Shown piece after piece: positions 41,430 to 45,954 of a stretch of 64,000 nucleotides of DNA. The DNA is from Betaproteobacteria bacterium. GTDB lineage: Bacteria > Pseudomonadota > Gammaproteobacteria > Burkholderiales > Rhodocyclaceae. The notes under the pieces were generated by a model. The model was given only the letters and a program-made list of their open reading frames with translations. It was not told where the DNA came from and did no database searches. The first letter of the stretch is position 1. Each line of letters starts with the position of its first letter. The position numbers and the translations under genes are program-made. The stretch spans positions 124,001-188,000 of the forward strand of contig VEPL01000029.1 in the NCBI GenBank assembly GCA_012026885.1. Direction: 5' to 3'.

Positions 41430-42947
41430 TCAGGTGCCGATCGGCGGCGATTGCCGGTAGAGCTCGGAAAAGTCGTCGGGCACTGGTGGCGGCGGCGGTG
41501 GCGGGTACCAGGCCGGGAAAGCGACGCGGGCTATCGCGCCGCGCCCGGCCGGGTTGGGCCTCAGCGTCGCGATAGCCTCGTGCTGAGCGGCAATTTCGCG
41601 GACGATGGCGAGGCCGAGGCCGCTGCCGTCGCCGGCTGCGTCATCGACCCGGTAGAAGCGCTCGAACACCATCTCGGACTGGGCTTCGCTGATGCCGACG
41701 CCATCGTCCTCAACCTCGAGGATGATCTCGGGCGCTACCGCGCGCACCCGGCAGGTGACGCAGCCCCCGGGCGGCGTGTAGCGGAGGGCGTTATCGATCA
41801 GGTTCTTCGCGAGTTCGCGCAGCAGGACGGCATTGCCGAGGACGCGCGCATCGACGTCGGCCTCGTAGCCGAGGTCGATGCGCTTTTCCAGCGCGGGCAT
41901 GACCCAATCCTCGACCACTTCGCGCATCAGTGCCGCGAGGTCGAGCGGAACATGGCTCAGTTGGGCCGACTCGCGCCCCTCGGTGCGCGCCAGCGTGAGC
42001 AACTGGTTCACCAGGCGCCCGGCACGGTCCACGCCGGTTGCGATCTGGCGCAGCGCATGGCGCAGCGCGTCGGGATCGGCCTCGCGGATGGCGAATTGTG
42101 CCTGCGTCTTCAGCCCGGTCAGCGGTGTGCGCAACTGGTGGGCGGCATCGGCGACGAAACGGTGCTGCAGTTCGACGTTGCGCTCCATGCGCCCGAGCAT
42201 CTCGTTGAAGGCCTCGATCAGGGGTTCCAGCTCTTCCGGAACGCGGCGGGTGGCGATCGGCGAAAGGTCGGCCGGGTCGCGCCGCTCGATGGTCTTGCGC
42301 AGGCGCGTCAGCGGGCGCAAGCCGCGCGAGAGGCCGAACCAGACCAGCATGACGGCGATCGGGATGATGATGAATTGCGGCAGGATCACGCTGGCGACGA
42401 TCTTGTTGGCCAGCTGCGTGCGCTTCTCCATGGTCTCGCCGACCTCGACCAGGATCCAGCTGTCGCGCGGCATCTGGCCGTCGGCGACATAGGCGTAGGC
42501 GACCCGGACATCCTGGCCCTTGAGGTCGATGTCGCGGAAATAAACCTCGCCGGAAAGGGCATCGGCGGGCACGCCGAGATCGGGGACGGGCAATTCGCGG
42601 TCGCCCGCGAGGAGGCGGCCGTCACGGGTGACGACGTGGAAATAGATGGTATCCGTCTCGTCGGCACGCAGCAGGGCGCGGGCCGACGACGGCAGGTTGA
42701 CGAGCGGGCGCCCGTTGACCAGGCGGATCTGGCGGGCGACGGCGGTAACCTGTTCGCGCAAGGCCTGGTCGTACGGGAAATTGGCGACGTTGTTGGCGAA
42801 GTAGTGCGTGAAGGCGATGCTCAACGGCCAGACGAAGAGCAGCGGCGCCAGCATCCAGTCGAGGATCTCGCCGAACAGAGAGCGCTGGCTCTCCGGCTGC
42901 GCCGGACTATTCTGCTGCGGGTCGCTCAAGGCAATAACCCAGGCCAC
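41430..42947 (-). CDS. TctE-like sensor histidine kinase
   Basis: The 505-residue sensor has a transmembrane segment near residues 32-50, a periplasmic domain of about 130 residues resembling the 2CSK_N/TctE sensor domain, a second transmembrane helix near 185-210, then HAMP and kinase modules. The H box is HRFVADAAHQLRTPLTGLKTQ near residue 262, followed by N box NLIDNALRY, DDGVGI and GSGLGLAIVREI. It overlaps the response-regulator gene by 41 bp at the ATG used; a TTG at 42929 is an alternative start. TctE-type sensors often respond to carboxylates, which fits the acetate-type permease nearby. Confidence 0.9.
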   Translation of the reverse strand: MAWVIALSDPQQNSPAQPESQRSLFGEILDWMLAPLLFVWPLSIAFTHYFANNVANFPYDQALREQVTAVARQIRLVNGRPLVNLPSSARALLRADETDTIYFHVVTRDGRLLAGDRELPVPDLGVPADALSGEVYFRDIDLKGQDVRVAYAYVADGQMPRDSWILVEVGETMEKRTQLANKIVASVILPQFIIIPIAVMLVWFGLSRGLRPLTRLRKTIERRDPADLSPIATRRVPEELEPLIEAFNEMLGRMERNVELQHRFVADAAHQLRTPLTGLKTQAQFAIREADPDALRHALRQIATGVDRAGRLVNQLLTLARTEGRESAQLSHVPLDLAALMREVVEDWVMPALEKRIDLGYEADVDARVLGNAVLLRELAKNLIDNALRYTPPGGCVTCRVRAVAPEIILEVEDDGVGISEAQSEMVFERFYRVDDAAGDGSGLGLAIVREIAAQHEAIATLRPNPAGRGAIARVAFPAWYPPPPPPPVPDDFSELYRQSPPIGT

Positions 42948-43578
42948 GCACGGTGGTGATCCTCACCCCGCCTGCCTCGAGCTTCTTGCGCAGGCGATGG
43001 ACGTAGACCTCGATGGCATTGTGGCTGACTTCCTCGCCCCAGCCGCAGAGCTGGTCCACCAGCTGATCCTTGCTGACCAGGCGCCCCATGCGCGTCAGCA
43101 GGACCTCGAGGAGCCCGACTTCCCGGGCCGACAGGTCGAGTGGCTGGCCGTCGATCAGGGCGACGCGGCCGACCTGGTCGTAGGTCAGCGTGCCGCACTG
43201 GATGGTCGGCGTCGTGCCGGCCGAGCGCCGCGTCAGCGCCCGCACGCGCGCTTCCAGCTCGGCCAGCTCGAACGGCTTGGTCATGTAGTCGTCGGCCCCG
43301 AGATCGAGTCCCTTGACCCGATCACCAGTCCCATCGAGGGCCGTCAGGATTAGTACCGGCAGTTGGGCGTTGCGCGCACGCACCCGCTTGAGCACCTCGA
43401 GCCCGGCGAGCTTCGGCAAGCCGAGGTCGAGGATGAGCAGGTCGTAGCCGGTGGTCATCAGCGCCGAGTCGGCGTCGAGGCCGTTCGCCGCCCAATCCAC
43501 CGCGTACCCGGCCTGACGCAGGGAGCGCGACAGGCCGTCGGCAATGATGGCATCGTCTTCGGCAATCAGTATCCGCAT
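42907..43578 (-). CDS. OmpR-family response regulator (TctD/QseB-like)
   Basis: The 223-residue regulator has a receiver domain (RILIAEDDAIIADGL, phospho-Asp in DLLILDLGLPKLAGLEVL near residue 51, Lys in DDYMTKPFELAEL) and a winged-helix DNA-binding domain (LSAREVGLLEVLLTRMGRLVSKDQL and EVYVHRLRKKLEAGGVRITTVRGLGYCL). It is first in the operon with its sensor. OmpR-family proteins bind direct repeats with an 11-bp period; such repeats lie 23 bp upstream of its ATG and in the actP promoter, so it may control both. Confidence 0.95.
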   Translation of the reverse strand: MRILIAEDDAIIADGLSRSLRQAGYAVDWAANGLDADSALMTTGYDLLILDLGLPKLAGLEVLKRVRARNAQLPVLILTALDGTGDRVKGLDLGADDYMTKPFELAELEARVRALTRRSAGTTPTIQCGTLTYDQVGRVALIDGQPLDLSAREVGLLEVLLTRMGRLVSKDQLVDQLCGWGEEVSHNAIEVYVHRLRKKLEAGGVRITTVRGLGYCLERPAAE

Positions 43579-43600: not shown

Positions 43601-43633
43601 TGTAAGCGTAGTGTAAGGGCTTCATTCTATCCT
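43601..43633 (+). promoter_or_regulatory. TGTAAG-N5-TGTAAG direct repeat plus -10-like hexamer
   Basis: TGTAAG (43601-43606), five bases, TGTAAG (43612-43617), ten bases, then TATCCT (43628-43633), all on the plus strand. This is the layout of an OmpR/PhoB-type activated promoter in which the repeats replace the -35. It points away from the response-regulator gene into the candidate small RNA. It could also autoregulate the regulator gene, since it lies only 23 bp upstream of its ATG. The same geometry recurs at the actP operon. Confidence 0.6.
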
Positions 43634-43639
43634 GTTCGC

Positions 43640-43731
43640 GCTGTTCTCCTTTTATGGTCTTGGAGTCTGCGGTCACGCCGCGGCTCAGGGGGTGGCCCGA
43701 TCCTGCACTGGGCGCCCCCTACCGTTTTTTT
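43640..43731 (+). ncRNA. Candidate small RNA of about 90 nt
   Basis: The 308 bp between the response regulator (43578) and actP (43887) contain no convincing gene. On the plus strand, a start predicted about 7 bp after TATCCT (near 43640) leads to a hairpin (AGGGGGTG(G)CCC / GGGCGCCCCCT, one bulged base) and seven T residues at 43725-43731. No plus-strand gene lies upstream that would need this terminator. The 5' part contains UUCUCCUUUU, complementary to Shine-Dalgarno sequences, as in many base-pairing regulators. A 66-codon ORF at 43654 lacks a ribosome-binding site. The RNA is predicted, not known. Confidence 0.45.
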
Positions 43732-43836
43732 CTTCCCCCGCTTTTCCTGAGTCGCATGCGGCCACTCCCGCGAGCGCGGCGTCGTGCCGTGTCGCAGTCG
43801 ACCGGTCGGGCGGGCCGAAATCGCAATCGGCAGACG

Positions 43837-43866
43837 AAAAAAAGCCCGGGTTGAAACCCGGGCTTT
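43837..43866 (-). terminator. Intrinsic terminator of DUF485-actP
   Basis: On the minus strand AAAGCCCGGGTT-TC-AACCCGGGCTTT is a perfect 12-bp hairpin whose 3' arm runs into a T-tract. It lies 20 bp after the actP stop. Confidence 0.92.
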
Positions 43867-43886
43867 CTGCTTTGGTGCGAGTCGGC

Positions 43887-45563
43887 TTAGTGGCCGGATG
43901 CGCCGGCGGCACCGAGGCCGGTTTCCGAACGCAGCTGCTGTGCCGGGTAGAGGGCACGTTCCTTCTTGGCCTGCTCGGAGTTGTCCAGGATGGACACCAG
44001 CCAGATGGTCACGAAGGCCGCAGTCATCGAGAAGATGGCAGCGGAGTTGTACGGGAACCAGGCGGAACCCTTCGGGTTGCCCATGACCGCTTCCCACACC
44101 GAGGCGGAGCCGATGGTCAGCACGGCGGCCAGGATGAGGCCGACGAAGCCGCCGACGACGGCGCCCTTGGTCGTGCAGTTCCTCCACAGCACGGACATGA
44201 ACAGCACCGGGAAGTTGGACGAACAGGCGATGGTGAAGGCCAGCATGACCATGTAGGCGACGTTTTCCTTCTCGAACGCGATGCCGAGGCCGATGGCCAG
44301 AATGCCGAGGGCGATCGTGGCCATCTTGGAAACGCGCAGTTCGGCTTCGGACGAGCAGCCCTTGGCGAAGACCGAGGCGTACAGGTCATGCGACACGGCG
44401 GAAGCACCGGACAGCGTCAGACCGGCCACGACGGCGAGGATGGTCGCGAAGGCCACGGCCGAGATGAAGCCGAGGAACAGGTTGCCACCGACCGCATTGG
44501 CCAGGTGCACCGCGGCCATGTTGCCGCCGCCCTTCAGGCCCTTGGCGATTTCACCGCCGACGTAGTATTCGGCAGGGTTGGCGATCAGGTTGGTGATGGC
44601 GCCGAAGCCGATGATGAAGGTCAGGATGTAGAAGTAGCCGATCCAGGTGGTTGCCCAGGCAACCGACTTGCGGGCTTCCTTGGCGTTCGGCACGGTGAAG
44701 AAGCGCATCAGGATGTGCGGCAGGCCGGCGGTACCGAACATCAGTGCCATACCGACCGAGATGGCCGAGATCGGATCCTTGATCAGCGCGCCCGGACCCA
44801 TGATGGCATCCTTCTTGGCGTGGATTTCGGTCGCCTTGACGAACAGCGCTTCGGGCGAGAAACCGAACTGGAACAGCACCGCAAGCGCCATGAAGGTCGC
44901 GCCGCCGAGCAGCATGACGGCCTTGATGATCTGCACCCAGGTCGTCGCGGTCATGCCGCCGAAGAGCACGTAGGCCAGCATCACGACACCAACCAGGATC
45001 TCGGCGTAGATGTACTCCATGCCGAAGAGGATCTTGATCAGCTGGCCGGCACCGACCATCTGCGCGATCATGTAGAAGGCGACGATGACCAGCGAGGCGG
45101 ATGCCGCGAAGATGCGGACCGGGGTCTGCGCGAAGCGGTAGGAGGCGACGTCGGCGAAGGTGAACTTGCCAAGGTTGCGCAGGCGTTCGGCCATCAGGAA
45201 GGTGATGACGGGCCAGCCGACCAGCCAGCCGATCGAGAAGATCAGGCCGTCGAAGCCGTTGGCGAACACGAGGCCGGAAATACCCAGGAAGGACGCAGCG
45301 GACATGTAGTCGCCGGCGATCGCCAGGCCGTTCTGGAAGCCGGTGATGCCACCGCCGGCGGTGTAGAAGTCAGCAGCCGACTTGGTCTTCGAAGCGGCCC
45401 ACTTGGTGATCCAGAGGGTACCGGCGACGAAGATGCCGAACATGGCGATGGCCGTCCAGTTGGTGGCCTGCTTCTGGGCCTGGCCGAGGTCGGCACCGGC
45501 AGCAATGGCGCCGCCCGCGACAGCCAGGGCGGCAACGGCCGCGAGGATGTGCTTGATATTCAT
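43887..45563 (-). CDS. actP: ActP-like sodium:solute symporter for acetate or related acids
   Basis: The 558-residue transporter begins with a signal-like segment ([23 protein letters not shown]) and has about 13 transmembrane helices of the SSS family. Family motifs are [34 protein letters not shown] near residues 70-105 and [18 protein letters not shown] near 290. ActP imports acetate, glycolate, pyruvate or similar acids with Na+. The ATG at 45563 is taken, as the TTG at 45584 lies inside the DUF485 gene. It starts 1 bp after the DUF485 stop, the conserved partner arrangement. Confidence 0.93.
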
Positions 45564-45564
45564 G

Positions 45565-45873
45565 TTATTTCTGTGCCTCCGCAATGATGCGTGCGTTGGT
45601 CTCGTCGAACTCGCCGTTGGCGCGACGGACGTAGACCCAGGTCAGGATGATGGTGAAGACGATGACGCCGACACCCAGCGGAACGCCAACCGAAGTGGTC
45701 ATGCCCGCGCCCAGCTTCTGGGCAAGGAACTCCTTGTTGTACGCGACCAGCAGGATGAAGCCGTAGTAGGCGGCTGCACTGATGATGGCCATGATCATCG
45801 AGTAACGGTTGCGCATGGCAACGAACTCGTGGAATTTCGGATTTTTGGTAATCCGGTCCAGTACGTCTTGCAT
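45565..45873 (-). CDS. DUF485 (YjcH-like) small membrane protein
   Basis: This 102-residue protein has two transmembrane helices (about residues 25-45 and 60-82) and the DUF485 pattern [35 protein letters not shown]. It is nearly always encoded immediately before actP and is thought to help the transporter, though its role is not established. GAGGAG lies before the ATG at 45873. Its promoter carries the TGTAAG repeat module. Confidence 0.93.
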
Positions 45874-45921: not shown

Positions 45922-45954
45922 AATGTAGGGGGGGGTTCTTACAGAGAACTTACA
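45922..45954 (-). promoter_or_regulatory. TGTAAG-N5-TGTAAG repeat plus -10 for DUF485-actP
   Basis: On the minus strand TGTAAG-TTCTC-TGTAAG (45938-45954) is followed after exactly ten bases (mostly C) by TACATT (45922-45927). The predicted start lies about 40 bp before the DUF485 ATG. No -35 consensus is needed if an OmpR-type activator binds the repeats. The repeat unit, spacer and distance to the -10 equal those at 43601-43633. An overlapping GTTCT-N5-AGAAC dyad (45935-45949) is also present. Confidence 0.65.

Follow-up and report, generated by a model that had tools for sequence, protein, structure and literature searches.

Organization of the locus

The window, by which we mean the whole 64,000-nucleotide (64 kb) stretch of DNA that was analysed, comes from Betaproteobacteria bacterium, a member of the Rhodocyclaceae, and contains a gap of 308 bp between a response-regulator gene and actP. 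The initial annotation had proposed an undescribed small RNA (sRNA) in this gap. The coordinates that it gave for the elements of the locus are accurate (Table 1); the gap is free of genes, as it had stated, and there is no plus-strand gene upstream that would need a terminator. Read from the sequence, the predicted RNA start lies at about 43639–43640. The plus strand from 43640 reads GCTGTTCTCCTTTTATGGTC, and the anti-Shine–Dalgarno (anti-SD) stretch at 43640–43653 reads GCTGTTCTCCTTTT.

The output domain of the regulator is Trans_reg_C, and the kinase has 2CSK_N, HAMP, HisKA and HATPase domains. The box in front of the actP operon is the second exact GTAAG-N6-GTAAG of the 64 kb window. The DUF485/YjcH-type name of the small gene heading this operon is our assumption, as no NCBIfam model matched it. 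A strong inverted repeat, AAGCCCGGGTT/AACCCGGGCTT, is found at 43836–43869, flanked by A and T runs; it is taken as the terminator on the actP side and may be bidirectional.

Table 1. Features of the locus, with positions in the window
Feature	Position	Strand	Remarks
Predicted small RNA gene, ~92 nt	43640..43731	+	Covariance-model match 43639-43730; conserved family-wide
Putative response-regulator box TGTAAG-CGTAG-TGTAAG	43601..43617	+	Direct repeat, 11-bp period
-10 element TATCCT	43628..43633	+	10-bp gap after box
5' single-stranded anti-SD segment GCUGUUCUCCUUUU	43640..43653	+	Nearly invariant; at or adjoining +1; alignments A1, A4
Closing helix P1, 5' strand AUGGU	43654..43658	+	Pairs with 43721-43725 (ACCGU); UG/UA/CG variation keeps pairing
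Hairpin P2 (GAG...CTC)	43663..43686	+	Sequence varies, pairing kept
GC-rich hairpin P3 (AGGGGG...CCCCCT, loop GATCCTGCACT)	43687..43720	+	Internal bulges
ACCG + T7 (T at 43725-43731), P1 end and U-tract	43721..43731	+	Intrinsic-terminator-like; kept in homologues
OmpR-family response regulator, TctD-like	42907..43578	-	Divergent from sRNA; proposed activator; Pfam Response_reg, Trans_reg_C
Cognate histidine kinase, 2CSK_N (TctE-type) sensor domain	41430..42947	-	PF08521, E 1.2e-38
actP, cation/acetate symporter	43887..45584	-	NF006903, 880 bits, above its cut-off
Small gene heading the actP operon, presumably DUF485/YjcH-type	45565..45873	-	
Second exact box TGTAAG-TTCTC-TGTAAG, DUF485-actP promoter	45938..45954	-	Followed by 10 bp and TACATT

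Conservation and structure of the RNA

A search of the intergenic DNA of the window against 41 relatives showed that the segment 43628–43732 is kept, beside the same response regulator, in about 20 of 24 genus members, mostly at 81–90% identity, and that the intergenic DNA flanking it is not conserved in these genomes. An exact scan of 85,462 species genomes for CTGTTCTCCTTTTATGGTC gave 79 stretches, mostly from Dechloromonas, Azonexus, Accumulibacter, Azospira, Oryzomicrobium and other Rhodocyclaceae. The covariance model R1 matches 76 of the 79 as well as the window, where the copy scores 98.1 bits (79.2 bits with the broader model R2, E = 1.7e-15) and is the sole match. Across 151 sampled Rhodocyclaceae genomes R1 matches 65 and R2 matches 74 (38 of 68 genera), nearly always in a single copy; about half of these genomes have no match. 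An order-wide sample of 250 genomes yielded only one match outside the family.

This single outlier (L169, in G345 from another family of the order) has the same regulator adjoining the RNA; it may reflect either transfer or wrong binning of the contig. The RNA is present twice in a few genomes (L144/L145 in G091, L152/L153 in G169, and G123), and no recognised regulator gene lies beside the RNA at L151 and L152.

The fold comprises three helices, of which P1 closes P2 and P3; P1 is AUGGU/ACCGU, or CGGU/GCCG in distant members. In the genus alignment 96.8% of the cells are paired and 9 of 26 pairs show two-sided change, and in the family alignment of 40 sequences the corresponding values are 95.2% and 10 of 15. 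The number of cells with two-sided change is 22 in the genus alignment (6.1 when shuffled) and 91 in the family alignment (26 when shuffled), and none of 500 shuffles reached the observed covariation values. The covariation signal collapses in control structures with slid partners, which correct for relatedness as the shuffles do not. The same alignments helped to define the structure; this benefits the percentage paired more than it does the two-sided counts. Compensatory change affects 5 of 10 P2 pairs genus-wide and 3 of 4 family-wide, and 6 of the 7 counted P3 pairs family-wide. The single-sequence folding energy of the window copy is unremarkable (z = −1.6); the weight of the evidence is thus comparative.

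A protein-coding reading was rejected because relatives carry 1 nt insertions and deletions immediately 3' of the invariant segment, and the absence of an open reading frame noted in the initial annotation is thereby confirmed for any conserved frame. Rfam 15 at the gathering score found only two tRNAs in the window and nothing at the RNA, and there was likewise no Rfam match at the RNA in six further homologous loci; relaxed thresholds produced chance matches only, mostly to the terminator-like repeat at 43836–43869. Simple σ70 promoter and terminator scanners flagged neither the promoter nor the terminator of the sRNA. The former was missed because the putative activator box occupies the −35 position, and the latter because the U-tract follows the closing helix (AUGGU/ACCGU) and not the hairpin itself. 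Our literature searches, which left most subscription journals uncovered, yielded no account of the RNA, and none of an sRNA belonging to an acetate regulon in Dechloromonas, Azonexus, Accumulibacter or Azospira, and searches combining sRNA with TctD, or Rhodocyclaceae with Azoarcus, with the same limitation, did not return a description of the RNA either.

With its own promoter, no conserved open reading frame, an intrinsic terminator and a conserved structure, the locus has the gene layout required of base-pairing, trans-acting sRNAs. We are highly confident that it encodes a real RNA family, a prediction made in the absence of transcript data. As neither an Rfam family nor, in the literature searched, a report was found, the evidence supports a previously uncatalogued family that is conserved in Rhodocyclaceae, and the proposal of an undescribed sRNA stands on firmer ground than when it was made, with family-wide covariation, promoter and U-tract behind it. 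Lack of conservation of the hairpin and promoter in relatives, which had been named in advance as refuting the proposal, was looked for and was not the case.

The 5' end, GCUGUUCUCCUUU, is nearly invariant among the homologues, and in the family alignment GCTGTTCTCCTTT is almost fixed while the hairpin sequences vary freely. This end and AAAGGAGAACAGC, a Shine–Dalgarno sequence with its downstream spacer, are reverse complements, so the complementarity pointed out in the initial annotation is correct as anatomy; repression of targets remains an inference. An invariant 5' end together with variable hairpins is the pattern expected of a trans-acting sRNA. It is left unexplained by cis-antisense feedback, in which the leader of the regulator mRNA is complementary to the whole RNA and the RNA mainly silences its own regulator, since such a pair stays fully complementary whatever its sequence. 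What speaks for this feedback is an extended −10 element on the minus strand (TGnTAnAnT) that faces the regulator gene just 3' of the RNA (∼43735–43760 in window terms) in 49 of 52 distinct genus-type loci, with similar motifs (TGnGATAAT, TGCTAGACT) seen by eye in many distant loci; in the window genome, however, the element is degenerate. We regard cis-antisense feedback as unlikely to be the main action, but it could add to action in trans.

Promoter and response regulator

We collected 111 distinct sRNA loci under the condition that one or more GTAAG preceded the RNA start, and this slightly favours the box count. The exact box (TGTAAG-N5-TGTAAG or GTAAG-N6-GTAAG) is present in 108 of them. 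By eye, the box is recognisable in all of the 40 distant loci that were found by structure alone, either exact or with a single base changed. The −10 element begins 10 bp after the box in 97 of 107 sRNA promoters, and the same offset is found in 36 of 51 acs-type promoters; in all but one of the promoters with a box the RNA start is 22–23 nt past it.

A homologue of the regulator in the window (66–100% identity) is divergent from and adjacent to the RNA in 108 of the 111 loci, and a kinase lies behind the response regulator in 102. The next recognised gene downstream is ActP in only 54 loci and GroEL in 25, the remainder being other or unresolved. The constant partner of the sRNA is the response regulator and not actP, the gene that the initial annotation had proposed as co-activated with the RNA. 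This constancy, while the other neighbour changes, also weighs against the view that another regulator binds the box, with the adjacent two-component system as a passenger. OmpR-family boxes look alike and there are no binding data, so this view retains some ground; an 11 bp direct repeat is nevertheless the type of site expected for an OmpR-family protein, and we consider a passenger system improbable. The adjacent response regulator remains the preferred candidate for the activator.

The proposed acetate regulon

The strict box CGTAAG-N5-TGTAAG occurs in one to three copies in 25 of 26 genus genomes, in which the reversed control is nearly empty, and its recurrent site apart from the sRNA precedes acs. 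A stricter pattern, which adds the fixed T of the −10 element to the box, was run on six genus genomes and gave 23 hits (three or four per genome) versus one for the reversed pattern. From their sequence context these sites are the sRNA, DUF485–actP, acs and gltA only. The gltA promoter carries the box in all six genomes, and among the six only G008 has no hit at DUF485–actP. In the window genome the sRNA, actP, acs and gltA are the only four sites; NCBIfam confirmed the acs and citrate synthase genes at the box sites, which are at L335 (G000:C1:513468) for acs and L341 (G000:C7:84962) for gltA.

The same box, with the same spacing, is found in 36 of 46 DUF485–actP promoters in the fetched loci. 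At acs it is exact in 25 of 29 R1-positive Rhodocyclaceae genomes and differs by one base in three others. It is exact, too, in 14 of 19 R1-negative ones, so that the regulon can exist in the absence of the RNA; outside Rhodocyclaceae it was found in one of nine genomes. As judged from these promoter sequences, the acetate regulon has a broader distribution than the RNA, which is one of its putative outputs. Co-activation with an acetate-type permease, suggested in the initial annotation from proximity, thus gains independent support from the shared box at DUF485–actP, acs and gltA.

Functional membership of the regulon, defined by the same regulator site at the actP, acs and gltA promoters, is met. 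We consider it very likely, without binding data, that the sRNA belongs to the acetate regulon and is under the control of the adjacent two-component system. Both the identity of the predicted RNA and its place in the regulon are well supported, on evidence that is entirely comparative.

Candidate targets and proposed mechanism

Candidate mRNAs have 9–18 bp of pairing to the seed over the ribosome-binding site, each in more than one species. By our own reading of the proteins, we take them to encode an SSADH/gabD-type enzyme, a dctQ-type TRAP permease, a CoA-transferase, and ahpF-type and nifE-type proteins; the ahpF-type pairing is about 18 bp in G019 and about 16 bp in the window genome. Duplex energies of the candidates are −20 to −29 kcal/mol, compared with −14.4 ± 3.0 kcal/mol at open reading frame starts in the window. 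Selection of the candidates relied on the seed pattern itself, with no conservation statistics at the level of orthologues, and the energies are therefore not an independent test. The pattern AGGAGAACAGN{0,6}ATG had no match in the window genome. The pattern GGAGAACAGN{0,6}ATG had many, some of them inside genes or antisense, and for this reason we name only candidates; much of the excess of the seed pattern over its reversed control is expected from ordinary Shine–Dalgarno sites. The leaders of acs, the actP operon and gltA give −16 to −18 kcal/mol; such values are not unusual and would be expected of an RNA that spares its own regulon.

The body of the RNA allows another reading, that it acts mainly by binding protein, for example by sequestering Hfq or a CsrA-type regulator: three helices form a compact unit with a U-tail, and there is a GGA motif near P2. 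The best-conserved part is, however, the single-stranded 5' anti-SD stretch, and the alignment contains no repeated GGA-loop array as in CsrB-type RNAs, so that we give this reading little credence. A terminator-like structure downstream of a regulated promoter might also suggest a 5' leader or attenuator belonging to a gene on the plus strand. Gene order contradicts this: no conserved plus-strand gene lies downstream, and the next recognised gene has convergent orientation in the window, as it has in 78 of the 79 loci with an identified actP or GroEL.

We hold with good, if not full, confidence that the RNA is a stand-alone base-pairing sRNA of the acetate regulon, for which there are no expression data. 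In the mechanism that we propose, the TctD/TctE-like two-component system would sense acetate or a related carboxylate (the signal is inferred), and the phosphorylated regulator would bind TGTAAG-N5-TGTAAG at the −35 position (the binding is likewise inferred). It would then activate four transcription units, the sRNA gene and three others: DUF485–actP for uptake, acs for activation to acetyl-CoA, and gltA for entry into the TCA cycle. The sRNA would present its exposed, unchanging 5' end, and the compact body and U-tail may be suited to Hfq, whose involvement is an inference. The 5' end is predicted to pair with the Shine–Dalgarno regions of mRNAs holding a AAAGGAGAACAGC-like sequence and so would block translation; both the targets and the direction of regulation are inferred. 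The genes most plausibly repressed would be other carbon routes that compete with acetate. The sRNA thus probably adjusts other metabolism during acetate use, and trans anti-SD repression, with its targets inferred, seems reasonably likely to be its main action.

Comparison with known systems

CbrA/CbrB with CrcZ/CrcY of Pseudomonas is a carbon-responsive two-component system coupled to small RNA. CrcZ sequesters the Hfq–Crc complex through A-rich motifs and is σ54-dependent, whereas the present RNA lacks A-rich motifs and its promoter consists of the box plus a −10 element. The TctD/TctE tricarboxylate system is similar in that TctD is the best-matching model for the regulator and 2CSK_N is present in the kinase. 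The regulator scores 251.9 bits with the TctD equivalog NF012023, which is below the curated cut-off of 337 bits and does not meet it, and the present regulon is that of acetate assimilation. The regulator works like an OmpR-family activator and is not filed as TctD.

Pseudomonas and Vibrio have an acetate two-component system, CrbS/CrbR (MxtR/ErdR) (PMC5715377, PMC8402216), and the likeness is that of a two-component system that activates acs and actP via a shared promoter motif. The regulator CrbR belongs to the LuxR family and uses an inverted-repeat ACTU motif, and the kinase CrbS is of the SLC5–STAC hybrid type (PMC5715377); the Rhodocyclaceae system, in contrast, combines an OmpR-family regulator with a 2CSK_N kinase and has a direct repeat, and here gltA and an sRNA also carry the box. 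Membership of CrbS/CrbR, defined by a LuxR-family regulator and an SLC5–STAC hybrid kinase, is not met at the locus. We favour, with modest confidence, a further type of two-component system for acetate control, unrelated to CrbS/CrbR (TctD/TctE-like, with a direct-repeat box), that runs acetate assimilation in Rhodocyclaceae through a regulon of about four units, including a new anti-SD sRNA family that shuts off competing carbon routes and perhaps its own regulator by antisense.

Acetate uptake is an early step in biological phosphorus removal and in much of the denitrification and perchlorate reduction by these bacteria. If the proposal is true, acetate control in the wastewater phosphorus accumulators Accumulibacter and Dechloromonas/Azonexus runs via this system. 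The finding names a regulator, a DNA site, target promoters and an RNA output, which can be tested directly in cultured strains such as Dechloromonas agitata or Azospira oryzae, and the sRNA is conserved in a large family of water-treatment bacteria.

The sibling sRNAs NmsRA/B (NgncR_162/163) of Neisseria are anti-SD RNAs that tune TCA-cycle genes at ribosome-binding sites (PMC5362039, PMC9973317); they are connected to the stringent response and have their anti-SD sites between and within stem-loops (PMC5362039). The present RNA is predicted to pair at ribosome-binding sites in a similar way; in the portions of the reports consulted, no two-component acetate regulon is noted for the Neisseria RNAs. 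The `Betaproteobacteria toxic sRNA' family RF02278 (bdhR1, NcS27) and Bordetella S17 are short RNAs with a CU-rich anti-SD 5' region, and for S17 repression of transporter and other genes has been reported (PMC5688073, PMC11722255). The present RNA is likewise a short betaproteobacterial RNA with such a region, but it has a different seed, promoter and context, and RF02278 has a two-hairpin form. RF02278 gave no match at the sRNA locus at its 50-bit gathering score, the only nearby match (12.7 bits) being to another element. Failure to belong to RF02278, NmsR or CrbS/CrbR does not lessen the claim that the RNA works like them.

Elsewhere in the window genome there is a true RF02278 RNA (L166, G000:C11:4317-4380; 64.8 bits), together with a second, weak RF02278 match (C11:307196-307257).
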